64,000 nucleotides of DNA, taken from the NCBI RefSeq assembly GCF_013403865.1, contig NZ_JABFDK010000001.1:1612001-1676000 (forward strand), in the 5' to 3' direction. Positions within the stretch are counted from its first letter, which is position 1. Every line of letters starts with the position of its first letter. The stretch is from Winogradskyella costae. Lineage in GTDB: Bacteria; Bacteroidota; Bacteroidia; Flavobacteriales; Flavobacteriaceae. A program made the translations under genes and the position numbers. The notes under the pieces are model-generated. The model saw nothing but the letters and a program-made list of their open reading frames with translations. It had not been told where the DNA came from and did no database searches. This document shows, piece by piece, positions 2,851-58,144 of this stretch.

Positions 2851-4824
2851 GTGAAGAACGAATTACAACTTTCAGATTGGTTACCTACCACAAACAAAGA
2901 GGTGAAAATTCGCGGATGGGAAGCACTCGATGTTATTCTGTTTAGCGGAGATGCTTATGTAGATCATCCAACATTTGGTCCTGCGGTTATAGGACGTATG
3001 TTAGAGAGTTTTGGGTTACGCGTCGCTATTGTGCCGCAACCTAATGTGAAAGATAATCTTCAGGATTTTGTGAAAATGGGGAAACCAAAACTGTTTTTTG
3101 GTGTTACAGGTGGCTGTATGGATCCTATGATTAGCAATTATAACGCAAATAAAAAACGTAGAGATAAGGATGCATATACGCCTAATGGAGATATTGGGTT
3201 TAGACCCGATTATGCAACAAGCGTTTATACTAATATTTTAAAAGAAAAATGGCCAGATACACCGGTTTTAATTGGTGGTATTGAAGCATCATTACGTCGT
3301 GTTACACATTACGATTTTTGGAGTGATAAGCTAATGCCTTCTATTTTAGAAACGTCTAAAGCAGACATGTTGGTGTACGGCATGGGTGAGCAACCTTTGC
3401 GTGAAGTGGTACGTTTACTAGAAAGAGGCGTGCCTTTTAATAGCATAAATACGGTTTTACAAACGGCAGTGCTTTTAAAAGAAGATGAAAAAATACCGAA
3501 GAATAGTAATTGGGAAGATATTGAAATCTCTTCGCATGAAGTTTGTTTAAAAGACAAGAAGAAATACGCTTCTAATTTTAAGGTGATTGAGCAGGAATCT
3601 AATAAGTTGGCTGCAAGACGAATTTTTCAGAAAATAGGGGATAAGACCTTGATGATTAATCCGCCGTATCCAACCATGACGGAAGCCGAAATTGATGCGT
3701 CTTTCGATTATCCTTATACCCGATTACCACATCCTAAATATAATAAACGAGGACCGATCCCTGCGTTTGAAATGATTAAGTTTTCCATCAATATTCACCG
3801 TGGGTGTTTTGGTGGGTGTAGCTTTTGTACCATTTCGGCACACCAAGGGAAATTTATTGCGTCTCGTAGTCAAGAGTCTATTTTAAAAGAAGTAGATACA
3901 GTGGCTAATATGCCTGATTTTAAAGGGTATTTGTCTGATATTGGTGGACCAAGTGCCAATATGTATCAGATGAAAGGGAAAGTGCAATCTATTTGCGACA
4001 AGTGTGTGGCGCCGAGTTGTATTTCGCCAGTGATTTGTAGTAATTTAGATACCTCTCACAAACCGTTAACGGAATTATACCAAGCGGTAGATAAGCATCC
4101 AAAAGTAAAGAAATCATTTATCGGTTCGGGGATTAGACATGATATGTTGGTGCCAGAATTTAATAAAAATGCCGATCCTAAAGAGTTAGATGATTACACG
4201 GAAGAGGTCATGACGAAGCACGTCTCTGGCCGATTGAAAGTAGCACCAGAGCATACAAGTGATCCTGTATTGAAATTGATGCGTAAACCGTCGTTTAAAT
4301 ACTTCCATAAGTTTAAGGAACGTTTTGATAAGATTAATATTAAGAAGGGTTTAAAGCTTCAATTGATCCCTTATTTTATATCGAATCATCCGGCTTGTGA
4401 AGTGGAAGATATGGCTAATCTAGCTGCTGAAACTAAAGATATGGGTTTCCAGTTAGAGCAAGTACAAGGTTTTACACCAACACCAATGACGGTTGCTACG
4501 GTTATTTATTATAGTGGTTACCATCCTTACACTTTAAAGAAAGTCAACACGCCTATTACTAAAAAGGAAAAGGACGAACAACACCGTTTTTTCTTCTGGT
4601 ACAAGGATGAAAATAAAGCGTGGATTAAAAAGACCTTAAACAAATTAGGCCGTGAGGATTTATTAAGCGTTCTACTTCCAGAGAAAACAGAAAAGTGGCG
4701 TAAAAACAAACCGAAAGGGGATGCTAAAAATACGTTTAATGATGCTGTACCTTTTAATCAGCGTAAAGCCGAAGATAAGGTGAGATTTAAAGGGAAGAAA
4801 CGCCATAAAAAGAAGCGCCGTTAG
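2851..4824 (+). CDS. ygiQ: YgiQ family radical SAM protein
   Basis: A 657-residue protein starting at a GTG codon. The N-terminal domain has the family landmark VILFSGDAYVDHPTFGPAVIGRML (about residues 28-51). The radical SAM core carries CFGGCSFC (about 319-326), whose three cysteines bind the [4Fe-4S] cluster that cleaves S-adenosylmethionine. A second cysteine-rich stretch (CDKCVAPSCISPVIC) follows. The C-terminus is strongly basic (GKKRHKKKRR). The reaction of YgiQ proteins is not firmly established. The GTG start fits because the first residues (WLPTTNKEVKIRGW) belong to the conserved N-terminus. The last 29 codons and the downstream DNA recur in degenerate form about 2.2 kb downstream. 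Confidence 0.93.
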   Translation: MKNELQLSDWLPTTNKEVKIRGWEALDVILFSGDAYVDHPTFGPAVIGRMLESFGLRVAIVPQPNVKDNLQDFVKMGKPKLFFGVTGGCMDPMISNYNANKKRRDKDAYTPNGDIGFRPDYATSVYTNILKEKWPDTPVLIGGIEASLRRVTHYDFWSDKLMPSILETSKADMLVYGMGEQPLREVVRLLERGVPFNSINTVLQTAVLLKEDEKIPKNSNWEDIEISSHEVCLKDKKKYASNFKVIEQESNKLAARRIFQKIGDKTLMINPPYPTMTEAEIDASFDYPYTRLPHPKYNKRGPIPAFEMIKFSINIHRGCFGGCSFCTISAHQGKFIASRSQESILKEVDTVANMPDFKGYLSDIGGPSANMYQMKGKVQSICDKCVAPSCISPVICSNLDTSHKPLTELYQAVDKHPKVKKSFIGSGIRHDMLVPEFNKNADPKELDDYTEEVMTKHVSGRLKVAPEHTSDPVLKLMRKPSFKYFHKFKERFDKINIKKGLKLQLIPYFISNHPACEVEDMANLAAETKDMGFQLEQVQGFTPTPMTVATVIYYSGYHPYTLKKVNTPITKKEKDEQHRFFFWYKDENKAWIKKTLNKLGREDLLSVLLPEKTEKWRKNKPKGDAKNTFNDAVPFNQRKAEDKVRFKGKKRHKKKRR

Positions 4825-4976
4825 TTCTAGGGTGTTTGCTTTAATCGAATGAATGTTTTAAAAGTTTTTGTTCTTGGTCTTTTAGCTCAGGATATGTCCG
4901 CTTATACCCGAGGATAACCCGCTTTAGATACGGATAAGATACGGGTGAGATACGGGGATGCTATGGGTGAACCTAA
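4735..4976 (+). repeat. Copy 1 of duplicated ygiQ 3' end plus downstream spacer
   Basis: This covers the last 29 codons of ygiQ plus about 150 bp after its stop. It aligns over its whole length with 6905-7140. Shared landmarks in order are TTTAATGATG, CCTTTTAATCAGCG, AGTTCT..GGTGTTTGCTTTA, TTTTAGCT and ATACCCGAGGATAACCCGCT, ending at CTATGGGTGAACC. In this copy the coding part is intact. Confidence 0.85.
4904..4976 (+). repeat. 11-bp-period tandem repeat downstream of ygiQ
   Basis: Between the edges ATACCCGAGG and CTATGGGTG the DNA is built of 11-nt units. AGATACGG occurs at 4926-4933, 4937-4944 and 4948-4955, exactly 11 nt apart, with three variable bases between. The corresponding stretch of the second copy (7074-7131) also has 11-nt units, but of a different sequence (ACCCGCTTAnG) and one unit fewer. 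An 11-bp period places units on nearly the same face of the helix. Confidence 0.7.
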
Positions 4977-6149: not shown

Positions 6150-6191
6150 GTTTGGTATTTTTGAAGAAAGAATTCTTTCATCTCAATAATC

Positions 6192-6337
6192 CTTTAGGGG
6201 ACAATCCTAACCGAGAAACATAAATAATTAAATTTATTTTCCCAATACCCAATTTATAAACCCTAAGAATATTATATTTTCCTTTATCAAATGTCCCCTT
6301 GAGCTTGCGGAGACTTGAGGGGGTGTGGAAAAGATGA
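6192..6337. repeat. Left direct repeat flanking the DUF559 gene
   Basis: About 145 bp aligns with 6739-6883 on the other side of the DUF559 gene. Shared blocks in order are GGGGACAATCCTAACC, TACCCAAT, AATATT, ATTTTCCTT, ATCAAATGTCCCCTTGAG and GGGTGTG. It ends 17 nt before the DUF559 start codon. An internal stem-loop (CCCCTTGAG...) sits at its right end. Confidence 0.75.
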
Positions 6338-6353
6338 GTGATAAATTAGTACA

Positions 6354-6719
6354 ATGAAAAACAAAATAATACCATACAACCCAGAGTTAAAAGAACGCGC
6401 TAGACAACTCAGAAAAAATAGCACATTACCTGAAGTCTTATTATGGCAACATATAAAACAGCGTGCTTATGGTGTTCAGTTTCATAGGCAAGTACCAATG
6501 CTAAATTACATTGTAGATTTTTATTGCCATGAAATAGGTTTGGTTATTGAAATTGATGGGGATAGCCATGAGCATCGTTTTATATATGATACCAAACGGC
6601 AAAGTGAACTAGAGGCTTATGATGTTACTTTTTTAAGGTTTTCTAATGAGGAGGTTAAAAAGAATATGTTTAGTGTGTTGTTGGTTATAGAAGAGACGGT
6701 TAGGGAATTGGTTGGGTAA
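6354..6719 (+). CDS. DUF559 domain protein, Vsr-like endonuclease fold
   Basis: A 121-residue protein typical of the DUF559 family: the N-terminal segment RARQLRKNSTLPEVLLWQHIKQ, the core GVQFHRQVPMLNYIVDFYC, then the acidic-hydrophobic strand LVIEIDGDSHEH and ending DVTFLRFSNEEVKKN. The family shares the very-short-patch-repair (PD-(D/E)xK-like) nuclease fold. The visible D and E residues (VDFYC, IEIDG) are the expected metal ligands. In flavobacterial genomes such genes often stand alone. Here it is bracketed by about 145-bp direct repeats, suggesting a small mobile or recombination-prone cassette. Its target is unknown. Confidence 0.85.
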   Translation: MKNKIIPYNPELKERARQLRKNSTLPEVLLWQHIKQRAYGVQFHRQVPMLNYIVDFYCHEIGLVIEIDGDSHEHRFIYDTKRQSELEAYDVTFLRFSNEEVKKNMFSVLLVIEETVRELVG

Positions 6720-6738
6720 GTTGGGAAAACACCCCTAA

Positions 6739-6883
6739 AGTCCCCTCGAGGGGACAATCCTAACCAACAAGCAAAAGTTTTAAAAATTAAAATTGATTTT
6801 ACCATTACCCAATCTGATATCCTATGAATATTCTATTTTCCTTAATCAAATGTCCCCTTGAGGGGACCTTAGGGGTGTGAAAT
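6739..6883. repeat. Right direct repeat flanking the DUF559 gene, with perfect palindrome
   Basis: The partner of 6192-6337. It contains a perfect 16-bp palindrome, GTCCCCTCGAGGGGAC (6740-6755), and a near-perfect relative, GTCCCCTTGAGGGGAC (6852-6867). The two palindromes bracket an AT-rich core of about 95 bp. CACCCCTAAAG before and CTTAGGGGTGTG after extend the inverted symmetry of the unit. Confidence 0.8.
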
Positions 6884-6904
6884 AAGGTTGCTATTTAAAA
6901 CAGT

Positions 6905-7140
6905 TTTAATGATGTTGTTGCCTTTTAATCAGCGAAAACCAGAACATAAGGTGCGATTTGAGGGAAAGAAATACAACTAGAAAAAGCGCCGATAGTTCTT
7001 AGGTGTTTGCTTTATTCTAATTGAAGTTTTATAGTATTTGTTCTTGGCCTTTTAGCTTAGAATAGGTCGGTATATACCCGAGGATAACCCGCTTATGACC
7101 CGCTTAAGACCCGAAGTTACTATGGGTGAACCCTTGGTTT
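6905..7140 (+). pseudogene. Copy 2 of the ygiQ 3' end: degenerate gene fragment plus spacer
   Basis: The sequence parallels 4735-4976. The coding part has a one-base insertion near 6916-6920 that shifts the frame. After the shift it reads PFNQRKPEHKVRFEGKKYN and then an internal TAG, against PFNQRKAEDKVRFKGKKRH in the intact gene. The spacer after it is also conserved, including TTTTAGCT and the 11-bp-period block (7074-7131). It is a gene tail without promoter or start and is not expected to be functional. Similarity is around 75-80% by eye. Confidence 0.8.
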
Positions 7141-7228
7141 GATTTGTATTAAATTTACTGTTTTAATGATACAAGCTCTATGAAAGTCTTAGATATTTAA
7201 TTTTTGCCTATACGTCCTCGTTATGGAT

Positions 7229-7289
7229 TGTTCCTTGAGCAGACATTAGGTGTGTGAAATAGAATTGATATTTAAAACAGTTTTAATGA
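7229..7289. repeat. Third partial copy of the repeat junction
   Basis: The 61 bp at 7229-7289 match 6851-6912: CCTTGAG, TTAGG.GTGTGAAATA and ATTTAAAACAGTTTTAATGA. This includes the junction between the DUF559 flank and the beginning of the ygiQ tail. Beyond 7289 the similarity fades, with only weak resemblance to the tail (ACTTTAAT). The rest of the gap 7141-7354 shows no gene. Confidence 0.65.
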
Positions 7290-7354
7290 ATGCATTACAC
7301 TTTAATAATTAAAAGAATAAGTTTAAGTATTAGATGAGGTTGTCAATGATTTAG

Positions 7355-48520: not shown

Positions 48521-49543
48521 ATGAACGAAAACCTAAATCCAAATAGCGATAATTTCAGTCCAGAAGAGCTAGATGTCGAAAAGAAATTAAGACCATTAAC
48601 GTTTGAAGACTTTACAGGCCAGGATCAGGTACTCGAAAATTTACTGGTGTTTGTACAAGCTGCTAATTTAAGAGGTGAAGCATTAGACCATACCTTATTT
48701 CACGGACCTCCCGGTCTTGGGAAAACAACCTTAGCACATATTTTGGCTAATGAGTTAGATGTTGGTATTAAAGTTACTTCTGGGCCAGTTTTAGATAAGC
48801 CTGGTGATCTAGCAGGTCTTCTTACTAACTTAGATGAACGTGATGTTTTATTTATTGATGAAATTCATCGTTTAAGTCCAATTGTAGAAGAGTATTTATA
48901 TTCGGCAATGGAAGATTACAAAATAGACATCATGATTGAATCTGGGCCAAATGCTAGAACGGTTCAATTGAGTCTAAATCCATTTACATTAATTGGTGCC
49001 ACGACACGTTCAGGATTGTTAACAGCACCCATGCGTGCTCGATTTGGTATTCAAAGTCGGTTACAATATTATAAAACCGATTTGCTCACAACAATTGTGC
49101 AACGTAGTGCGTCTATTTTAAATATGCCAATATCTATGGAAGCTGCTATTGAAATTGCGGGTAGAAGTAGAGGAACACCTCGTATTGCCAATGCCTTATT
49201 AAGACGTGTTAGAGATTTTGCTCAAATAAAAGGGAATGGTAAGATTGATATCGCCATCGCTAAATTTGCATTAAAAGCGCTGAATGTTGATGCTTACGGA
49301 TTAGATGAAATGGATAATAAGATATTAACTACTATCATTGAAAAATTCAAAGGTGGGCCAGTTGGTATCAGCACTATTGCTACGGCTGTAAGTGAAAGTA
49401 CAGAAACGATAGAAGAAGTATATGAACCTTTTTTAATTCAACAAGGCTTTATAATGCGAACACCTCGTGGACGTGAAGTTACAGAACAAGCTTATAAACA
49501 TTTGGGCAAGGTAAAAGGACCAACACAAGGAGGTTTGTTTTAA
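48521..49543 (+). CDS. ruvB: Holliday junction branch migration ATPase RuvB
   Basis: 340 residues. The AAA+ core has GPPGLGKTT (62-70), [10 protein letters not shown] (Walker B), the RuvB hairpin region [35 protein letters not shown] (sensor 1 and arginine finger region) and a C-terminal winged helix ([17 protein letters not shown]). It forms hexamers that drive branch migration with RuvA, whose gene lies at 58285 rather than next to ruvB. Confidence 0.96.
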
Positions 49544-49606
49544 AATCGTATAGATTCTTAGTAGCTAACCTGTTTTAAACTTAATTTAAATACCGCTAAT
49601 TATATA

Positions 49607-50938
49607 TTGAAATCAGAAAGCAACATACCTACGGTTCCTTTAAGTCGATTTTTTAAACACTCTTTAGAGATTCTTAAAAATCCACTGCCTTTTCATCATC
49701 AAAACTTTGAAGCGCAAGGTGATGTTTTCAGATTAAAAATTGGATTTAAAAATAGTGTGGTCTTTGTTAGAGATGCGGCCTTTGCAGAATATGTCCTTCA
49801 AAAGAATCAAAAGAATTATACCAAATCTAAAATCCAAACAGAAGATTTAGTAAAATATGTTGGTACCGGATTGTTAACTGCAGAAGGAGAGCATTGGAAG
49901 AAACAACGCAAACTCATTCAGCCAGCCTTTCATAAAAAACAATTAGCAAATCTTTTAGATAGTATTAAAAATGCTATTCTTTCCGAATATAGCAAGATTA
50001 CTACGAATGCTACTATAGACATATTTCCCATTCTTAATGACTTGGCATTTCAAGCCGTTGTAAAATCATTGTTTAGTAGTGCGGCTAATCAAGACGATAT
50101 TAATCGGTTGCAATATATTACAGAAGCTGCTCAAAAAATGCTTGTTAAAGAGTTACGCCAACCGTATTTAGGATGGTGGTTTAATGTGAGTGGAGAAATT
50201 CAAAAACACATAGATTTAACCGGTGAGGCACGACAAATACTAAAACGTATTGTCAACGAACGAAGAGCTTCTGAAGTAAAGGAAAATGATTTATTAGACA
50301 TGCTGTTAGAGGCTAGATATGATGATGGCAATCCAATGGAAGAAGAGCAGCTCATTGATGAAATCTTAATTCTATTTACGGCAGGTCATGAAACTACGTC
50401 TAACGCGCTCACATTCATAACACAACTCTTGGCGTTACATCCTGAGTGGCAAGAAAAAATTCTAAAAGAACGGGTTATAATTCTTTCAAATAGCGATGAT
50501 TTAATGGACTTGGTAACCCAATCTAAAATTTGTCAGCAAGTTATAGAAGAAGGCATGCGATTATATCCACCAGTGTACTTTATAGATCGTGTAAACAAAG
50601 AAGCGGATACTTTTAATGACATGGATTTTGAAGCTGGATGTAATCTTTTATTCTCTGTTTATGAAATGCATCGTCATCCTAAATTATGGGAGCAACCCGA
50701 TGCCTTTTTACCTGAACGTTTTAGTGAAGGTGGTCGTAAATTTTCATCTCACTATTTTCCTTTTGGAGCAGGTCCACGGAAATGCATTGGAAATAATTTT
50801 GCCATGTTCGAAATGATTATTGCGGTTTCAGAATTGGTTTCTGCCTTTAAGGTAATTCCAAAGTTTGATACCATTGATATCACACCATTAATCACTCTAA
50901 AACCTAAAAATGCTTTTTTAAAGTTTGAAAAACGATAG
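49607..50938 (+). CDS. Cytochrome P450
   Basis: 443 residues starting at TTG 49607; no in-frame ATG exists near the N-terminus, and a stop lies upstream at 49562. P450 landmarks are [17 protein letters not shown] (C-helix), [15 protein letters not shown] (I-helix, O2 activation), [15 protein letters not shown] (ExxR) and the haem loop [19 protein letters not shown] with Cys393. No signal anchor is present, so it is a soluble bacterial P450 related to the CYP102/CYP4-like clan. Electron partner and substrate are unknown. The queG start follows the stop codon by 2 nt, so the two are co-transcribed. Confidence 0.92.
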
Positions 50939-50940
50939 TA

Positions 50941-51864
50941 GTGTTAAACCATAAAGCTAAATACAGTGAGATGATTAAAGCCGAAGCCAAACGCCTCGGT
51001 TTTTTGTCTTGTGGCATTAGTAAGGCTGAATTCCTAGAAACCGAAGCACCACGATTAGAAGCATGGTTAAATAAGAATATGAATGGTGAAATGCATTATA
51101 TGGAAAACCATTTCGATAAGCGTTTAGATCCAACATTACTTGTTGAAGGTTCAAAAAGTGTGGTGTCTTTACTGTTGAATTATTATCCGTCAGAAACTCA
51201 AACGGACGATTCTTATAAGCTTTCCAAATATGCTTACGGAAACGATTATCATCATGTCATAAAACACAAGCTAAAGTCATTATTGTATTTTATTCAAGAT
51301 GAAATAGGAGAGGTTGGCGGACGTGCTTTTGTTGATTCCGCACCAGTTTTAGATAAAGCTTGGGCTGCAAAGTCTGGTTTGGGTTGGATAGGTAAACATT
51401 CAAATTTATTAACCCAACAAGTAGGTTCTTTTTATTTTATAGCCGAATTAATCATAGACTTAGAATTAGAATACGACCATATAACGACAGATCATTGTGG
51501 TACGTGCACTAAATGCATAGATGCTTGCCCAACTGAAGCCATTACAGAACCGTATGTGGTGGATGGAAGTAAATGTATTTCCTATTTCACCATAGAACTT
51601 AAAGAAAATTTACCCACAGAATTTAAAGGCAAATTTGACGATTGGATGTTTGGATGTGATGTTTGCCAAGATGTTTGTCCTTGGAATAAATTTAGCAAAC
51701 CACACAATGAGCCTTTATTTAATCCGCATCCTGAATTACTGGATATGACCAAAAAGGATTGGGAAGAAATTACAGAAGATACCTTTAAAAAAGTGTTTCA
51801 GAAATCGGCTGTAAAACGGACTAAGTTTCCTGGTTTAGAACGGAATATTAAATTCTTAAAATAG
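50941..51864 (+). CDS. queG: Epoxyqueuosine reductase
   Basis: 307 residues from a GTG codon ([31 protein letters not shown]). The N-terminal cobalamin-binding domain contains [27 protein letters not shown]. The ferredoxin domain has [16 protein letters not shown] and [13 protein letters not shown] for two [4Fe-4S] clusters. It reduces epoxyqueuosine to queuosine at the wobble position of tRNAs with GUN anticodons. Its last 31 codons are repeated in diverged form after the next gene (52575-52670). The C-terminus reads [19 protein letters not shown]. Confidence 0.94.
51772..51864 (+). repeat. Copy 1 of the duplicated queG 3' end
   Basis: The last 31 codons including the stop. They align with 52575-52670 at about 87% over 90 nt by eye. 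The translated copies read [19 protein letters not shown] here and [19 protein letters not shown] in the second copy. Confidence 0.85.
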
Positions 51865-51869
51865 TAAGT

Positions 51870-52571
51870 ATGAAATTATACTATATTTTAGTTTTTCTAA
51901 TTTTATGTTTTAGTTGTTCCTCTAAAAGAAATTCTGTTTATTTTGAGAGTATTCCCAGTCAATATGCTGATAATGACTATAAATTTGATTTGGATAATGT
52001 AGTTTACCCAGTAAATAGAGAGGTCTTATATCAATGCACTATTGAACATAATAACAAGCTTTTAGATACAGATTTGAGATATGTAAGGATGATAATTCAA
52101 GGAACCACAAAACCTTTCTCTAGTTTTGATCCGACTTATAATCAAACAGTTGTTAAGTATGAATATTTAGATCACAGCAAAAAACAGATTACTAGAGAAA
52201 GAACAGGTTTGGTTGAAAATAAAATCAATATATGGTTACATCCGCCACGTCAAACAGACTTGCATGTATTGCAGCTTTCTGCTTTTCCATATATAAAATT
52301 GAATGCTATTAAAAATTGGAAATGGAAACTTGTCGGTACTTATGGTAGTTATGAGAGCGTAGAGTTAACGCATCATTACAAGAAAAATGAAGAGCGCATT
52401 TATGATTCCAATTTAGGTCAGCTTAAATGTATTTTGGTTGATGCTATAACTAAGAGTCGTATTGGTAAAACGACAGCAGAATTCTTATATAATGACGAAT
52501 TGGGTTTTGTAAAAATGAAGTTTTCTACAATTGAAGATACTACGATCACACTAGAAATGATAAAAGAATAA
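51870..52571 (+). CDS. Putative lipoprotein of unknown function
   Basis: 233 residues. A lipoprotein signal peptide MKLYYILVFLILCFSC carries its lipobox cysteine at residue 16. The remainder is beta-rich and polar (NREVLYQCTIEHNNKLLDT, WLHPPRQTDLHVLQLSAFPYIKL, NWKWKLVGTYGSYESVELTHHY), as in surface-exposed or periplasmic lipoproteins. No family is recognised. It sits between queG and a copy of the queG tail, so it was probably inserted there. Confidence 0.78.
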   Translation: MKLYYILVFLILCFSCSSKRNSVYFESIPSQYADNDYKFDLDNVVYPVNREVLYQCTIEHNNKLLDTDLRYVRMIIQGTTKPFSSFDPTYNQTVVKYEYLDHSKKQITRERTGLVENKINIWLHPPRQTDLHVLQLSAFPYIKLNAIKNWKWKLVGTYGSYESVELTHHYKKNEERIYDSNLGQLKCILVDAITKSRIGKTTAEFLYNDELGFVKMKFSTIEDTTITLEMIKE

Positions 52572-52574
52572 ATA

Positions 52575-52670
52575 ACTGAAGTCACCCTTAAAAAAGTGTT
52601 TCAGAAATCGGCTGTAAAACGCACTAAGTTTCTTGGTTTAGAGTGGAATATTAAGTTTTTGAAGGATTAA
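52575..52670 (+). pseudogene. Copy 2 of the queG 3' end (orphan gene tail)
   Basis: The frame from 52575 to the TAA at 52668-52670 reads [19 protein letters not shown], then LGLEWNIKFLKD, against [30 protein letters not shown] in queG. Most differences are synonymous or mild, so the copy is recent or has come from a related species. It has no start codon and begins only 3 nt after the lipoprotein stop codon. Confidence 0.85.
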
Positions 52671-52728
52671 TATACCCAAAATATCAAATCATTAATTTCG
52701 TTATATTTGTATAAGAACATAATATACT

Positions 52729-52964
52729 ATGGATATTCAATTAGAAAAATATAAGTTAATGGAATGGTTGGTTTGAATGACGAAACCATTATTTCTAAAT
52801 TAAAAGAGATTAAATCAAATTTATCTAATACTTCGGATTGGAATGAGGGTATTTCAGATACGGAAAAACTGCTAATTGAAGCTGGATTTAAAGATATTGA
52901 AGCAGGAAATACAAAGACTCATAACCAAGTAATGGAAGAAATTAAGGCTGCTTATGATATTTAA
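52729..52964 (+). pseudogene. Frameshifted antitoxin gene of a type II toxin-antitoxin pair
   Basis: ATG 52729 begins MDIQLEKYKLMEWLV and stops at a TGA. In a different frame the sequence continues VGLNDETIISKLKEIKSNL to the TAA at 52962. The two parts join as ...MEWLVGLNDETII..., a typical small flavobacterial antitoxin, if one GGTT unit is restored at about 52764-52772. An ATG in the second frame (52764) could give a 66-residue remnant. TATATTTG (52702-52709) is a plausible -7 box. Confidence 0.65.
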
Positions 52965-52966
52965 TC

Positions 52967-53239
52967 ATGGAATTATAAAGAGATTTTAGAATACCTTAAA
53001 ATACAATGGACAAAAAGGTAGTTAATAGCTTTTAAGGAATTAACTAACGATGTTTTGTTCAAAATTCAAAAAAGGCAAATTGTATTCTCTATTGTCAATA
53101 AAGCATTAGGAATTAGAAAAATTGTTCTTCGCAAAAACGTCTCCTTATTTTACAAGGAAGATAAAAACAACATTTACTTAATTACTTTTTTAATAATAAA
53201 ATGAATCCAGAGCGTCTGAGCGATCTATTGAAGCAATAA
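52967..53239 (+). pseudogene. Degraded RelE/ParE-like toxin gene
   Basis: Directly after the antitoxin remnant. Reading across frames gives YKEILEYLKIQW, then KELTNDVLFKIQKRQIVFSIVNKALGIRKIVLRKNVSLFYKEDKNN in three stretches, then NKMNPERLSDLLKQ and TAA at 53237-53239. The ...EYL..W....F...I..I...P....RK.....ivlYK.....i.l..ff..R.nP.... pattern is that of the ParE/RelE superfamily. Several one-base indels (near 53018, 53034 and 53192) and a missing N-terminus inactivate it. The region 53240-53321 holds nothing further. Confidence 0.7.
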
Positions 53240-53321
53240 CGATACTCGATTGAATTTTACATTATAGATATTGTAAAAATCAGATTTGAAATGGACTTAG
53301 TTTTTAAAAGATTAAATAGTA

Positions 53322-55691
53322 TTACTTAAACGTAAAGCCCATAGAATATTTAAAAGTAAAATTATCGCTCGATTTGTCAAGATTGTGATACCCATACCGA
53401 TAGAAAGCACCAACACCAATCCCTAAGTAACCAATATTTAAGTACGGAATTTTAATAATATTCTGAAGTTCTAGTCCTGTTTCTAAAAATAACTCTTCTT
53501 TGGTTTTAAATTCAATATTCTGATGATATGCCGTATGATCTAAACTTCCTATTCCGAGATTATTATAGAGCAGAACATCAGGCTGAAATTGGCCTTTGTT
53601 GTTAAATAGCCGTCCGAAGTTATGTGTTATGAACAAATTAGCATAGCGATCAGATAAAAACTCATAGGGTGTTACGGTTTGAAAATAATTCTTCACCACA
53701 AAAGGAATTTTTTTGTCTAAAGTTCCTTCGCCTGTAAATAGTAATCCATAAGGTAGCGCACTATCTATATAACCCAAGTCTAAGCGATATGTTGTTTTTC
53801 CAAGTCCTTTAGTTATAAAACTATGATCTAATGTAAAGCGTAATTTGTTATAATTAAAATCACTGTCAAAAGTACCTTTTAATCCTCTCGAGTAAATCAG
53901 GTTAAAAACGGGTGCATCGCTAGGTAGTCTGGTTGTTATTCCGAAGGTTCTTACTAGTTGTTCATTAACATGATAGCCAATACCGACATTGATTTCAGAA
54001 TTGGTATAATTTGTCATTGGTAATCCATTAGTCATAAATTGATAATCGTAAAGCGGAGTCACATCAGCAGTATTAAAACCCAAATTCCAATTTATATTCC
54101 GCCAAAGTTTCATCTCTGTATGAATACTAAAGGATTCTAGAGCGTCCATTTGACTTGCAATCCAATTGCGTTGAACAAAAGGGTTATCAGTAGTATTTCC
54201 AGAATAGGTTCCTGTTTCTCGTAAATCATTCTTGTATTTTAAGCTTACTGAAATATCTTTCTCTCCAGGAACATTGACTAAAACCTCTCCTCCATATTTC
54301 CAAGTGTGGTCTTTAAACCCATAGGCACCATAGCCACCAATAGACACGTGTTTAAAAATATCATCATTTGTATAAAGTCCAAGCCCTAATCTTGTGCCTT
54401 CGTATTTATTATATCTAATTAGATGTTTTAGGTCTAGATCAACATATTTTAATGGAATTCTCCACTTAGCCAAACTAGGAGCCCACTTTAAAAACTTGTC
54501 CAATTTCAATTCCTCCCCAATACTATCCATTAACACATAAGTGCGCCGTTCTTTTACATCTAATGTATCCTTTCTGTACTGATCCCAATATTGAGAATAT
54601 CGACCTTCTACTCCATCAGGTAAGGTGAGCGAAACTAATGGGAAGTCTTTCTTTTCTAGTGGAGTATTTAGGTTAATTTCAGATAAATAACTTTTACCGA
54701 CATACTTAAAACTGCCAAAGCCTTCACCTAGAATAATAACGAAATTTAACTGTTCTGGAAACCAATGGTCGTTGTCTATAAATTTATATTTCTGCTGAAT
54801 CATAAAATCTATTTTTCCAGAATTATAAGTTGAGGCATTAACACTTTCTACTGCATATTGGTTAGAATTAATATAAAGCAAACCTTCTAAGCCTTCAAAG
54901 TTGCGATTTGCTCTAGGTTCAAAAGAAATAACAAATACAGTGTCTTGTCCTTTTACGTATTCGTCTTTTAGTCTAAATTTATATTTGTTCGTACTCCCTT
55001 TTGAAATGGGATTTAGGTAGTTTGTTTCAAACAGAGAGATGTGCTCATCGTAAAAAGAAAAAGGTTGAAAACTATTGGCTAAAACAGCAAAATTAGGATT
55101 TTTAAAACCTGAAGTTCTTCTAGCAATAACACTATCTTCAGAAAATTTTGGTTTTAAATATTTATGCTTAGCAATGGTTTCTGTAATAAAAAAATAAGAA
55201 TCTTTAAAAATTGAATCAACGGCTTTAAGCGAATCACTTTCGAGTTGGTCTTCATTGATGTCGACATAAACTTTGTCATAAGATTTATAGGTGAAGGAAT
55301 TTAGGTTTTCAGGATTATTACGCTCTTTAGTAGCCACCGCTAATCTAATAATCCGATGTGCCGGATTTTCTCTATCAATAACCACTTCATCAAGTTCGCT
55401 AACAGCTTGCTTTAGCGTAATGATTTCGCTTTTTATATTTGCGATCCTTAAGATTTTTGTCTCATAACTGACATAACTTATGGTGATTTGCTTAATATCT
55501 GAATTAACAAAAAAGACACCATCAATATCAGTTGCAGTCCCTTTATGAGGGGAGTCATTAAAAATAATATTAGCAAATGGAATTACGGTACCACTATCTT
55601 CATCAATAAGTTTGAATTTTTTTAAGGATTGACTATAACTTGTTAAACTTAAAAAAACGAATACAATGGTTAATGCTACTACTTTTTTCAT
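53322..55691 (-). CDS. DUF5686 family outer-membrane protein with CarboxypepD_reg-like domain
   Basis: About 789 residues from ATG 55691 (MKKVVALTIVFVFLSLTSYSQ, a signal peptide). An upstream ATG at 55715 would add eight residues before it. The first about 100 mature residues form a CarboxypepD-regulatory-like beta sandwich (VIPFANIIFNDSPHKGTATDIDGVF). The rest is a DUF5686-type beta-barrel-like region with alternating hydrophobic strands and a C-terminal strand ending in YSMGFTFK. It is an outer-membrane component of unknown function, common in Bacteroidota. Confidence 0.88.
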   Translation of the reverse strand: MKKVVALTIVFVFLSLTSYSQSLKKFKLIDEDSGTVIPFANIIFNDSPHKGTATDIDGVFFVNSDIKQITISYVSYETKILRIANIKSEIITLKQAVSELDEVVIDRENPAHRIIRLAVATKERNNPENLNSFTYKSYDKVYVDINEDQLESDSLKAVDSIFKDSYFFITETIAKHKYLKPKFSEDSVIARRTSGFKNPNFAVLANSFQPFSFYDEHISLFETNYLNPISKGSTNKYKFRLKDEYVKGQDTVFVISFEPRANRNFEGLEGLLYINSNQYAVESVNASTYNSGKIDFMIQQKYKFIDNDHWFPEQLNFVIILGEGFGSFKYVGKSYLSEINLNTPLEKKDFPLVSLTLPDGVEGRYSQYWDQYRKDTLDVKERRTYVLMDSIGEELKLDKFLKWAPSLAKWRIPLKYVDLDLKHLIRYNKYEGTRLGLGLYTNDDIFKHVSIGGYGAYGFKDHTWKYGGEVLVNVPGEKDISVSLKYKNDLRETGTYSGNTTDNPFVQRNWIASQMDALESFSIHTEMKLWRNINWNLGFNTADVTPLYDYQFMTNGLPMTNYTNSEINVGIGYHVNEQLVRTFGITTRLPSDAPVFNLIYSRGLKGTFDSDFNYNKLRFTLDHSFITKGLGKTTYRLDLGYIDSALPYGLLFTGEGTLDKKIPFVVKNYFQTVTPYEFLSDRYANLFITHNFGRLFNNKGQFQPDVLLYNNLGIGSLDHTAYHQNIEFKTKEELFLETGLELQNIIKIPYLNIGYLGIGVGAFYRYGYHNLDKSSDNFTFKYSMGFTFK

Positions 55692-55796
55692 TTTACAACG
55701 TGTTAGGTGCAACAATGTAGTAAATTATCGATGAATTGATTAAACGTAATCTTTATTTTTAAAAAGACAGAAACCAAAGACGAACGTTCATTTTCT

Positions 55797-55804
55797 TATA
55801 TTTG
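55797..55804 (+). promoter_or_regulatory. Candidate -7 box for maeB
   Basis: TATATTTG at 55797-55804 matches the consensus and lies 48 nt before the maeB ATG. No clear -33 partner is seen. Confidence 0.45.
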
Positions 55805-55852
55805 CAGCTTGTATTAAATGCATTTTTGTTTAATATCTAACCCATTCAAATT

Positions 55853-58144
55853 ATGAGCAAACAAAGCAAACGTTTAGAAGCCTTAGTATATCACGCAAAA
55901 CCAACTCCTGGTAAAATTAAAGTTGTACCAACAAAAAAATATGCGTCGCAACGCGATTTGTCTTTAGCCTATTCACCAGGTGTTGCTGAGCCCTGTTTAG
56001 AGATAGCCAAAGATGTAGAAAATGTCTATAAATACACGGCTAAAGGAAACCTCGTCGCCGTAATTTCTAACGGAACTGCGGTTTTAGGTTTAGGAAATAT
56101 TGGTCCAGAAGCCTCTAAACCAGTGATGGAAGGTAAAGGGTTACTGTTTAAGATATTTGCAGACATTGATGTGTTTGATATTGAAGTTGACACGGAAGAT
56201 GTTGAAGCATTTATTGCAACAGTTAAAAATATAGCACCAACTTTTGGTGGTATTAACCTAGAAGATATAAAAGCTCCAGAAGCTTTTGAAATAGAACGCC
56301 GCTTAAAGGAAGAATTAGATATTCCTGTAATGCACGATGATCAGCATGGTACAGCAATCATTTCGGCAGCAGCGTTGCTAAATGCTTTAGAAATTGCTAA
56401 AAAGAAAATAGAAGACGTCACCATAGTGGTTAGTGGCGCAGGCGCTGCGGCAATCTCTTGTACACGTTTATACCAAGCATTTGGTGCAAAGCGTGAAAAC
56501 ATAGTGATGTTAGATAGTAAAGGCGTGATCAGAGATGATAGAACTAGTTTAACCTCTGAAAAAGCTGAATTTGCAACCCATCGAAAAATAGATACTTTAG
56601 AAGAAGCGATGCAAAATGCAGATGTGTTTGTTGGTTTATCTCAACCAGATATTGTAACGCCAGAGATGCTGCTAACTATGTCGGCTAATCCTATTGTGTT
56701 TGCGATGGCAAATCCAAACCCAGAAATTCAATACCAATTAGCGATAGATACTAGAGAAGATATCATTATGGCAACGGGTCGTAGTGATCATCCTAACCAA
56801 GTGAATAATGTTTTAGGATTTCCTTTTATTTTTAGAGGAGCTTTAGATGTTAGAGCAACAAAAATTAACGAAGCTATGAAAATGGCAGCCGTTAAAGCTT
56901 TGTCTGATCTGGCAAAAGAATCCGTGCCAGAACAAGTGAATATCGCTTACGCAGAAACAAAATTAACTTTTGGTAAGGAGTATATTATTCCAAAACCATT
57001 TGATCCAAGATTAATTGCTGTAGTGCCGCCAGCAGTTGCTAAAGCAGCAATGGAAAGTGGAGTTGCAAAAGAGCCTATAGAAGATTGGGATCGTTATAGA
57101 AACTCATTATTAGAACGATTAGGGTCCGATAATAAATTGGTGCGTATGCTGATGGGTAGAGCAAAAACCAACCCAAAACGTGTTGTTTTTGCTGAAGCAG
57201 ATCAGTTAGATGTTTTAAAAGCAGCACAGATTGCTTACGAAGAAGGCATTGCGCATCCCATCCTTCTGGGTAGAAAGAAAGTCATTTTAGAATTGATGGC
57301 AGAGATTGAGTTTAATGCTGACGATGTTGCTATTATAGATCCAAAATCAGACAAAGAAACCAATCGTAAAAATCGATATGCAAAAGCATATTGGGAAAAG
57401 CGAAAACGTCAAGGAGTCACCATTTATTCTGCAGAAAAAGTAATGCGCGAGCGTAATTATTTTGCCGCAATGATGGTCAATGTTGGTGATGCAGATGCAT
57501 TAATTACAGGGTACTCTCGTAATTATCCATCAGTGGTAAGACCTATGTTAGAGCTAATAGGTATGGCAGATGGTGTTTCAAGAGTAGCAACGACCAATGT
57601 AATGATGACGCAACGTGGTCCAATGTTTTTAAGTGATACCTCTATAAATATTGATCCTTCAGCTAAAGACTTGGCTAAAATTGCGCGTATGACATCGCGA
57701 GTTTCAAAAATGTTTGGAATAGAGTCGGTTACGGCAATGATTTCGTATTCTAACTTCGGCTCTTCAGACAATCCAAGGGCGGAAAAAGTAAGAGAAGCTG
57801 TTGCGTATTTACATAAAGCACATCCAGAAATGGTTGTTGATGGTGAATTGCAAACGGATTTTGCACTTAATCAGAAAATGCTTCAGGATATTTTTCCATT
57901 TTCAAAGCTGGCAGGTCGAAAAGTTAATACCTTAATTTTTCCGAATTTAGATTCGGCAAATATTACGTATAAATTATTAAAGGAACTTAATAATGCAGAA
58001 TCTATTGGGCCAATTATGATGGGAATGCGCAAGCCTGTTCATATTTTGCAACTAGGTGCCAGCGTAGATGAGATTGTAAACATGACTGCAATAGCAGTTA
58101 TTGATGCACAAGAACGAGAAAAAAGGACGCCTAGGTTGGGGTAA
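55853..58144 (+). CDS. maeB: NADP-dependent malic enzyme with C-terminal phosphotransacetylase-like domain
   Basis: 763 residues, the usual length of the MaeB hybrid. The N-terminal malic enzyme domain (about 1-420) has SLAYSPGVAEPC, VMHDDQHGTAIISAAALLNAL and the dinucleotide-binding IVVSGAGAAAISC. The C-terminal half (about 430-763) is a phosphate acetyltransferase-like domain (VVFAEADQLDVLKAAQIA, YAKAYWEKRKRQGVT, NTLIFPNLDSANITYKLL), which in known enzymes is regulatory, not catalytic. It converts malate and NADP+ to pyruvate, CO2 and NADPH. It precedes ruvA and sprA in the order usual for flavobacteria. Confidence 0.95.
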   Translation: MSKQSKRLEALVYHAKPTPGKIKVVPTKKYASQRDLSLAYSPGVAEPCLEIAKDVENVYKYTAKGNLVAVISNGTAVLGLGNIGPEASKPVMEGKGLLFKIFADIDVFDIEVDTEDVEAFIATVKNIAPTFGGINLEDIKAPEAFEIERRLKEELDIPVMHDDQHGTAIISAAALLNALEIAKKKIEDVTIVVSGAGAAAISCTRLYQAFGAKRENIVMLDSKGVIRDDRTSLTSEKAEFATHRKIDTLEEAMQNADVFVGLSQPDIVTPEMLLTMSANPIVFAMANPNPEIQYQLAIDTREDIIMATGRSDHPNQVNNVLGFPFIFRGALDVRATKINEAMKMAAVKALSDLAKESVPEQVNIAYAETKLTFGKEYIIPKPFDPRLIAVVPPAVAKAAMESGVAKEPIEDWDRYRNSLLERLGSDNKLVRMLMGRAKTNPKRVVFAEADQLDVLKAAQIAYEEGIAHPILLGRKKVILELMAEIEFNADDVAIIDPKSDKETNRKNRYAKAYWEKRKRQGVTIYSAEKVMRERNYFAAMMVNVGDADALITGYSRNYPSVVRPMLELIGMADGVSRVATTNVMMTQRGPMFLSDTSINIDPSAKDLAKIARMTSRVSKMFGIESVTAMISYSNFGSSDNPRAEKVREAVAYLHKAHPEMVVDGELQTDFALNQKMLQDIFPFSKLAGRKVNTLIFPNLDSANITYKLLKELNNAESIGPIMMGMRKPVHILQLGASVDEIVNMTAIAVIDAQEREKRTPRLG

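Follow-up and report, generated by a model that had tools for sequence, protein, structure and literature searches.

In the flavobacterium Winogradskyella costae the housekeeping gene queG, which encodes epoxyqueuosine reductase, is followed by a lipoprotein gene and then by a second, diverged copy of its own 3' end. We analysed this arrangement in a stretch of 64,000 nucleotides (the window), bases 1,612,001-1,676,000 of contig NZ_JABFDK010000001.1 (C11) in a genome of 4.13 Mb (G000). We found that the copy is the old end of the resident gene, displaced by DNA that now stands in front of it. Probably this DNA was imported without an integrase, by homologous recombination anchored in queG and with a non-homologous joint on the right.

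The two copies form a direct repeat, 51763-51867 and 52566-52670 (105 nt, 85% identical, spacing 803), which a comparison of queG with the 12 kb downstream returned as 98 nt at 86.7% identity (E-value 4e-30). The second copy, hereafter the tail, translates as queG residues 275-307 (33 codons, 85% amino acid identity). Its start coincides with, or slightly precedes, the stop of the lipoprotein gene (51870-52571), and no open reading frame (ORF) of at least 60 aa covers it, the end of the lipoprotein gene excepted. An earlier note on this DNA had reported that the queG end recurs behind the lipoprotein gene, in frame to a stop; about 33 codons at 85-87% identity and a TAA at 52668-52670 bear this out. 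Chance likeness is ruled out by an nhmmer model of 60 queG 3' ends (E-value 5e-22 in 204 kb of downstream intervals, no match on the reverse strand), and an assembly artefact by the independent genome G014, which has the same lipoprotein-tail joint. Read along the + strand, the order is ruvB, P450, queG, lipoprotein gene, queG-end copy, ~640 bp of decayed DNA, DUF5686-type gene (on the - strand) and maeB. The features are:

49607..50938, + strand: cytochrome P450 gene, on the left of the tract that was apparently imported
50941..51864, + strand: queG, the anchor gene, a mosaic (TIGR00276 equivalog, 336.6 bits, cut-off 200)
51763..51864, + strand: intact queG 3' end, the copy in current use and repeat partner of the tail
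51870..52571, + strand: cargo, an intact gene for a lipoprotein of 233 aa (no Pfam or NCBIfam match)
52566..52670, + strand: tail scar, the displaced native queG 3' end (collinear with G032 queG from -104 to +3520 at 90%)
52671..53310, no strand: remains of older cargo (93.5% to G032; 70.6% over 245 nt to G056)
53265..53313, + strand: possibly another queG tail, eroded, directly in front of the DUF5686 gene (alignment score compared with random windows)
53322..55715, - strand: DUF5686/CarbopepD outer-membrane gene, older occupant of the site (clusters with its orthologues; PF18939 in 14 scanned members)
55853..58144, + strand: maeB (NADP malic enzyme), which bounds the hotspot on the right (NF009501 profile, 769 bits, below the cut-off of 1178)

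From the tail rightwards (702-4299 nt past the queG stop), the locus aligns unbroken to that of a sister species (G032), beginning 104 nt before the intact queG end of the latter (90% identity over 3.6 kb, 95% over the first 335 nt). G032 has no match to the lipoprotein gene. Because the collinearity is unbroken and G032 is itself without the lipoprotein, the tail represents the former end of the resident queG.

The left flank groups differently. In a tree of the coxA-like gene and ruvB, G000 joins G014 and G032 (support 87/90) and a grouping with G005 is rejected (approximately unbiased (AU) test, P-value 4e-5). In the P450 tree (G056 left out), G000 joins G005 (100/99) and a grouping with G032 and G014 is rejected (AU test, P-value 5e-6). 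Nucleotides 1-450 of queG also reject the latter grouping, with support of 66/65 for the branch of G000 and G005; these flank trees comprise six or seven genomes. Identity to G005 is 79-90% in ruvB, jumps to ~98% at ~49580 (the ruvB-P450 border), remains at 89-99% to ~51500 and drops after that, inside queG (98.2% in nt 1-450, 92.7% in 451-700, 89.0% in 701-921). On these sequence comparisons, the P450-queG flank left of the cargo is foreign, a G005-like tract of ~2 kb. G014 groups with G032 in coxA-like plus ruvB, and with G002 in both P450 and queG 1-450 (100/99 in each case). The idea of a recombination-driven insertion anchored in gene 3' ends, put forward in the earlier note, agrees with the tests run and has to be refined on one point: the native end is the old copy behind the cargo, and it is the end of the intact gene that would have arrived with or beside the cargo.

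Codon positions tell how tail and intact end diverged. A decaying duplicate would show about one third of its differences at third positions. Pooled over eight tails from this and other genomes (the two weakest, that of G030 and the second of G034, left out), 89 of 129 differences from the genome's own queG end (69%) are at third positions (P-value 1e-16), or 80 of 116 without G014, whose joint is common with G000; among working queG pairs the share is 76%. The bias is individually significant (P-value < 0.05) in 7 of the 8 tails, the G056 tail being the exception, and in G000 it amounts to 9 of 14 differences. As most differences fall at third positions, tail and intact end diverged as working alleles in different lineages, i.e. 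their divergence is xenologous. A local duplication of the own queG end with later decay of the copy would account for the direct orientation, and for the own queG being the best nucleotide match of 4 of the 9 tails compared. However, a third-position share close to that of working alleles and the continuity of the tail with the native right side of G032 led us to reject local duplication, which we regard as scarcely credible.

The site receives varied cargo across the genus. We compared 60 Winogradskyella genomes (an evenly drawn sample, our own included) at queG and downstream. The maeB gene lies within 300 bp of the queG stop in 23 of them (at 44-52 bp in ten), 0.9-11.8 kb of varied cargo separates the two genes in 31, and in six maeB was not found on the stretch examined. 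Cargo includes DUF5686 genes, a sugar operon of LacI/TonB/MFS/PfkB/alpha-amylase type, GAF-histidine kinases, peptidase-C39 ABC exporters with HlyD, thioredoxin-like, DUF4136 and fasciclin-domain proteins, and the lipoprotein. Of 117 cargo ORFs that are 100 aa or longer (the own genome's cargo excluded), 103 entered a joint Pfam scan (14 large, repeated or G057 ORFs omitted), and 25 of the 59 families it gave were considered. In seven genomes a DUF5686-type gene adjoins queG at 1-7 bp (G057 by ORF size only). None of the 50 matches to PF00589 (tyrosine integrase) in the nine tail-bearing genomes lies between queG and maeB, and no recombinase was found in 19 singly scanned cargo proteins, other families of recombinases and mobile elements being covered only in part. 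The queG-maeB junction is an insertion hotspot with varied cargo and, in these nine genomes, free of tyrosine integrases. We use the term on the strength of the varied cargo, the interval empty of PF00589 and the incongruent flanking core gene (queG 1-450, 7 genomes), and not of the statistical threshold of PMC5635113.

Two details of the hotspot's left border may be added. The minus-strand LacI-type gene of the sugar operon overlaps the queG stop by ~4 bp in G002, G034, G058, G035 and G021 (L120, L114, L124, L132, L157), and the end of a LacI-type gene overlaps it by ~17 bp in G001 and G023. The P450 that G056 (L265) has in this place left of queG is much further diverged (67% identity), which means that exchange also affects the left side of queG.

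Searched with a profile built from the 60 queG ends, 9 of the 60 genomes showed a total of ten queG tails behind cargo, and the reverse strand showed none. The carriers are G000, G003, G013, G014, G017, G018, G030 (weak, E-value 2e-5), G034 (two, the second with E-value 6e-4) and G056. Among 80 named queG loci of several genera, there were three tails (L034, L035, L051), all in genomes of the same set; these loci mostly had 4-kb flanks, from which longer cargo would escape the profile search. Four tails stand as far from their former neighbour as a native queG end does, namely 47 bp from maeB in G013 and G034 and 4-7 bp from DUF5686 in G003 and G056; for reference, empty sites have 44-52 bp to maeB in 10 of 23, and the queG-DUF5686 distance is 1-7 bp in seven tail-less genomes. 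Protein searches of one kind gave second, C-terminal-only matches for queG in 7 of the 60 genomes and for dprA in one, and for ruvB, the control over the same 60 genomes (incomplete in G046), there were none among the matches listed (Fisher test, P-value 0.013 for queG versus ruvB and 0.06 for queG versus dprA).

Islands inserted into gene 3' ends leave an intact gene, cargo and a gene tail in direct orientation. The anatomy at queG is the same, and a tyrosine integrase could have inserted islands into the queG 3' end, the tail being the right attachment site (attR). However, the tails start 184, 132, 127, 118, 114, 105, 104, 80, 79 and 72 nt before the gene end, a scatter that leaves no common attachment core, and the left flank is recombined over ~2 kb. 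Together with the interval free of PF00589 and the lack of any phage DNA match for window 51700-52750, the varying tail starts disfavour such an element, which we consider very unlikely.

Tails might instead be kept because the queG 3' end holds a promoter or terminator needed downstream. They do persist while drifting, and many queG-maeB spacers measure only ~50 bp. Of the 54 genomes in which maeB was reached, 46 have a promoter-like motif, TA(T/C)(C/A)TTTG, no more than 60 bp upstream of this gene, and these include 21 of the 23 empty sites; we take the motif to be of the Bacteroidota -7 type. This motif, however, is placed in the spacer and not in the tail, neither tail nor queG end has a terminator-like site, and window 49000-56000 has no Rfam match. 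Moreover, 23 of the 31 cargo-bearing loci do without a detectable tail. A regulatory need is highly improbable, and we reject it on the spacer motif and the absence of a terminator-like site and of an Rfam match.

Stacking of old 3' ends by age was seen in one genome, G034. There the sugar operon adjoins queG and is followed by a decayed piece like the C-terminus of DUF5686 (66% over 213 nt to G002, E-value 1e-12; E-values of 1e-4 to G032 and 5e-4 to G019; not significant versus G058, G035 and G001, the likeness to G058 being a translated one judged by eye). A DUF5686 gene comes after the same sugar operon in G002 and G058. Beyond the decayed piece lie a queG tail, DUF4136-fasciclin cargo (collinear with G011, 84.5%), a second queG tail and maeB at 47 bp. 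The tail behind the queG-adjacent cargo scores 85 bits and the far more decayed one beside maeB 15 bits. The order reads as a resident queG-DUF4136-fasciclin-maeB locus with an older scar, into whose queG end a segment made up of queG', the operon and part of DUF5686 would later have been joined. Our own window may hold a similar record. In a sample of 2498 random windows (86 nt, contig C11), two scored as high against queG ends as 53265-53313; under an earlier, gap-poor scoring against ten queG ends, 52 of 2884 windows scored as high, which is not unusual. A second tail here would possibly make the window a two-layer stack. The older-cargo remains (52671-53310) had no match in the other four loci tested, and G056 has only their beginning.

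We picture the import as follows. DNA of a relative would carry the queG region and whatever follows there (here P450-queG-lipoprotein). On the left the incoming DNA would pair with the resident queG region and recombine by homology, presumably with RecA; its right end, having no homology, would be joined illegitimately inside the resident queG near the 3' end. The complete 3' end of the incoming queG would keep the gene functional, and the cut-off old end, with the older cargo and maeB behind it, would remain right of the new cargo as the tail scar. Repeated imports would stack cargo, the newest beside queG. Two ways of forming the right joint are conceivable: directly on linear DNA, by homology-facilitated illegitimate recombination (HFIR), or through a circle that integrates by a single crossover. 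The long foreign left tract fits HFIR on linear DNA; the duplication without downstream loss fits the re-ligation and single-crossover route described for Escherichia coli in part of PMC3240628. Transformation is a plausible route of uptake. The genome has comEC and dprA. Within the family, two Riemerella species are reported to be competent, but in Flavobacterium johnsoniae competence was not seen (PMC7965970). As to the shortness of the queG tails (no more than 184 nt), our guess is that longer repeats were lost by recombination.

Several observations weigh against this import. No tail is detectable in 23 of the 31 cargo-bearing genomes. For four tails, those of G003, G013 and G018 and the first of G034, the best match is the own queG, a ranking that is weak at a tail length of ~100 nt. 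The queG 3' half is too short to give a resolved tree, so its 3' end is presumably, not demonstrably, foreign. We found no living donor with a G005-like P450-queG followed by the lipoprotein gene, so foreign flank and cargo, whose joint arrival we assume, may have entered one after the other. Next to eight joints, 1-5 of the 10 nt on the left side match, about chance for this comparison made without donor sequences; classic linear HFIR, as given in the cited part of PMC3240628, deletes resident DNA and mostly uses 3-10 bp of microhomology. Finally, G000 and G014 share the lipoprotein-tail joint despite unlike flanks, which one simple import into each does not explain.

The shared joint would be expected of an integrase-free cassette whose tail acts as a homology arm carried along on the right, or whose cargo and tail circulate as a circle formed by recombination of tail with queG, and which re-enters any queG. 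The joint is identical in G000 and G014, the left flanks differ (G005-like and G002-like), and so do the right neighbours (a 640-bp cargo remnant versus a DUF5686 end). In E. coli, moreover, single crossover of trimmed, re-ligated linear DNA is reported to have duplicated 109-950 bp at ten times the HFIR rate (PMC3240628, in part). On the other hand, the joint was perhaps inherited from an ancestor of G000, G014 and G032 and lost in G032, and RecA would work poorly on ~100 nt at the present tail-queG identity, which is 80-91% for 8 of the 9 tails compared and 68% for the oldest. We consider such a cassette origin rather unlikely. More broadly, that tails turn cargo into integrase-free cassettes, with arms on both sides, entry into the queG of any relative and the resident cargo kept, is a possibility that we also rate as rather unlikely. 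If true, the end of a housekeeping gene would act as an attachment site read by RecA, and queG, dprA and perhaps ygiQ would carry arrays in the order of arrival.

The import by one-sided recombination is, in outline, a known mechanism; new are the housekeeping-gene setting and the ordered record of scars. HFIR is known from Streptococcus pneumoniae, Acinetobacter baylyi and Pseudomonas stutzeri and from E. coli conjugation (PMC3240628, as far as the cited part goes). It shares with queG one homologous end (here the ~2-kb G005-like tract with its switch at ~49580) and probably one illegitimate end. In the E. coli screen of the same report, most products described in that part were 109-950 bp duplications of the 3' part of a gene by single crossover, an anatomy as at queG. 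However, those are laboratory constructs, and neither the deletion of resident DNA nor the microhomology seen there is shown at queG. A homology-assisted illegitimate recombination has also been proposed for small variable segments (PMC2884548, in part).

Sequential displacement is described for effector-immunity modules of the type VI secretion system (T6SS) in Vibrio cholerae, where displacement of rhs tips is also named (PMC5361080, the part consulted). There too a 5' anchor is shared, a new module enters and old 3' parts are pushed back and stacked, and a mechanism akin to HFIR is proposed. The T6SS anchor, in contrast, leads into a variable toxin gene whose 3' part changes, whereas queG remains an unchanged housekeeping enzyme (TIGR00276), and the cargo at queG consists of unrelated metabolic, envelope and signalling genes. 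Many bacterial insertion hotspots have no recognisable mobile elements (PMC5635113, in part). Like queG, the integrase-less hotspots of that report have conserved flanks, varied cargo, no integrase and an incongruent flanking core gene. Its model, a double homologous exchange in both flanks, is scarless by itself, while recombination at queG is one-sided and tails order the insertions. From an integrative element in a gene 3' end, queG differs by having neither a tyrosine integrase (PF00589) nor a constant attachment core. Among the papers listed by searches of the open-licence PubMed Central literature, none describes tail scars at housekeeping genes; there was nothing on queG as an insertion or integration site, and nothing on topic by title or abstract for horizontal gene transfer and recombination in Winogradskyella. 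Gene arrival at such hotspots is mostly inferred from statistics of flanking genes. A tail scar documents an individual import in the DNA itself: it shows where the joint lies and which end is native, and it puts successive imports in order. Scanning for tails would make one-sided recombination countable in many genomes and separable from integrase islands, and would show cargo gain without loss of resident DNA.

The lipoprotein itself appears to be tied to this site. Its Cys16 is invariant across 23 aligned sequences; 25 relatives were found among 5.8 billion proteins, 22 of them 223-241 aa long. The predicted structure consists mostly of beta strands (mean predicted local distance difference test score (pLDDT) 78.7, residues 12-39 poor). 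The possibility raised in the earlier note, that the gene stands at this site throughout the family, does not hold: it is present at queG in 3 of the 60 genus genomes (G000, G014, G006) and in 1 of 299 of a family sample outside the genus (G352). All four close orthologues lie directly behind queG, those of G006 and G352 (the latter of another genus) being frame-broken and with no queG tail found. Ten more distant relatives (25-37% identity; nine in the family sample and one, in G059, in the genus) had no queG within the ~1.5-kb flanks examined. Between carriers, identity of the lipoprotein and of maeB is 92.4 versus 89.9 (G000-G014) and 79.5 versus 81.5 (G000-G006); with a divergence near that of maeB, the lipoprotein does not look like a newcomer from a distant source. 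It looks like an old allele of the queG site that circulates or survives patchily. A phage origin was discarded because window 51700-52750 has no DNA match among 50,697 phage records, and a plasmid-borne cargo because only two distant Hymenobacter matches (29-32%) were found.

Gene tails are rare in the scanned part of the genome. We scanned 1.696 Mb of contig C11 (41% of the genome; 1349 ORFs of at least 100 aa) for orphan partial copies of at least 60 nt. Raw matches to C-terminal parts numbered 13 downstream and 8 upstream, and those to N-terminal parts two upstream and two downstream. After inspection three C-terminal matches downstream remained (queG, ygiQ and dprA), none upstream, no N-terminal match upstream and one downstream (88 nt); reciprocal paralogue pairs were set aside by judgement, and matches shorter than 60 nt were dropped (29194, 52 nt; 86142, 23 nt; three N-terminal). 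The earlier note had named a genome-wide scan for such tails as a check. Three tails stand against no upstream heads here, but 3 versus 0 is a small number, and the comparison was with heads and with the opposite side rather than with shuffled gene orders. A fourth candidate, at 1127424-1129057 (a 373-aa gene), was not retained, since the ~400-nt partial copy belongs to an ORF of 161-171 aa next to it. The gene and this ORF, which resembles its C-terminal third, form a pair in eight genus genomes including ours and represent a domain duplication and not a scar.

Outside the window, dprA (C11:1273446-1279290, L186:13446-19290) stands before cargo and, 4.2 kb further on, a displaced dprA end of ~570 nt. 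Of the 119 differences between this end and the intact one, 74 are third-position changes. DNA 171 bp past this tail matches, at 70-74%, a region ~200 bp behind the intact dprA in 2 of 6 relatives (G005, G056), with none among the matches listed for the other four. The anatomy is similar to that of queG and less firmly shown.

The earlier note's other case was ygiQ:

2851..4824, + strand: ygiQ (TIGR03904 equivalog, 778 bits)
6921..7109, + strand: ygiQ tail copy including ~115 nt past the stop (79-81% to 4750-4939)

The repeat (4750-4939 versus 6921-7109) is real, but the copy extends ~115 nt beyond the ygiQ stop. Because the third-position bias is not significant (8 of 16 differences) and the tail sits in a repeat-rich patch (window 6191-7306), we rate ygiQ as a possible to probable displaced tail of the queG type. 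G056 (L276:7756-10129) has three ygiQ tail copies, ~0.9-0.96 kb apart, among units like window 6320-7231, and its full ygiQ homologue lies on another contig than these copies.

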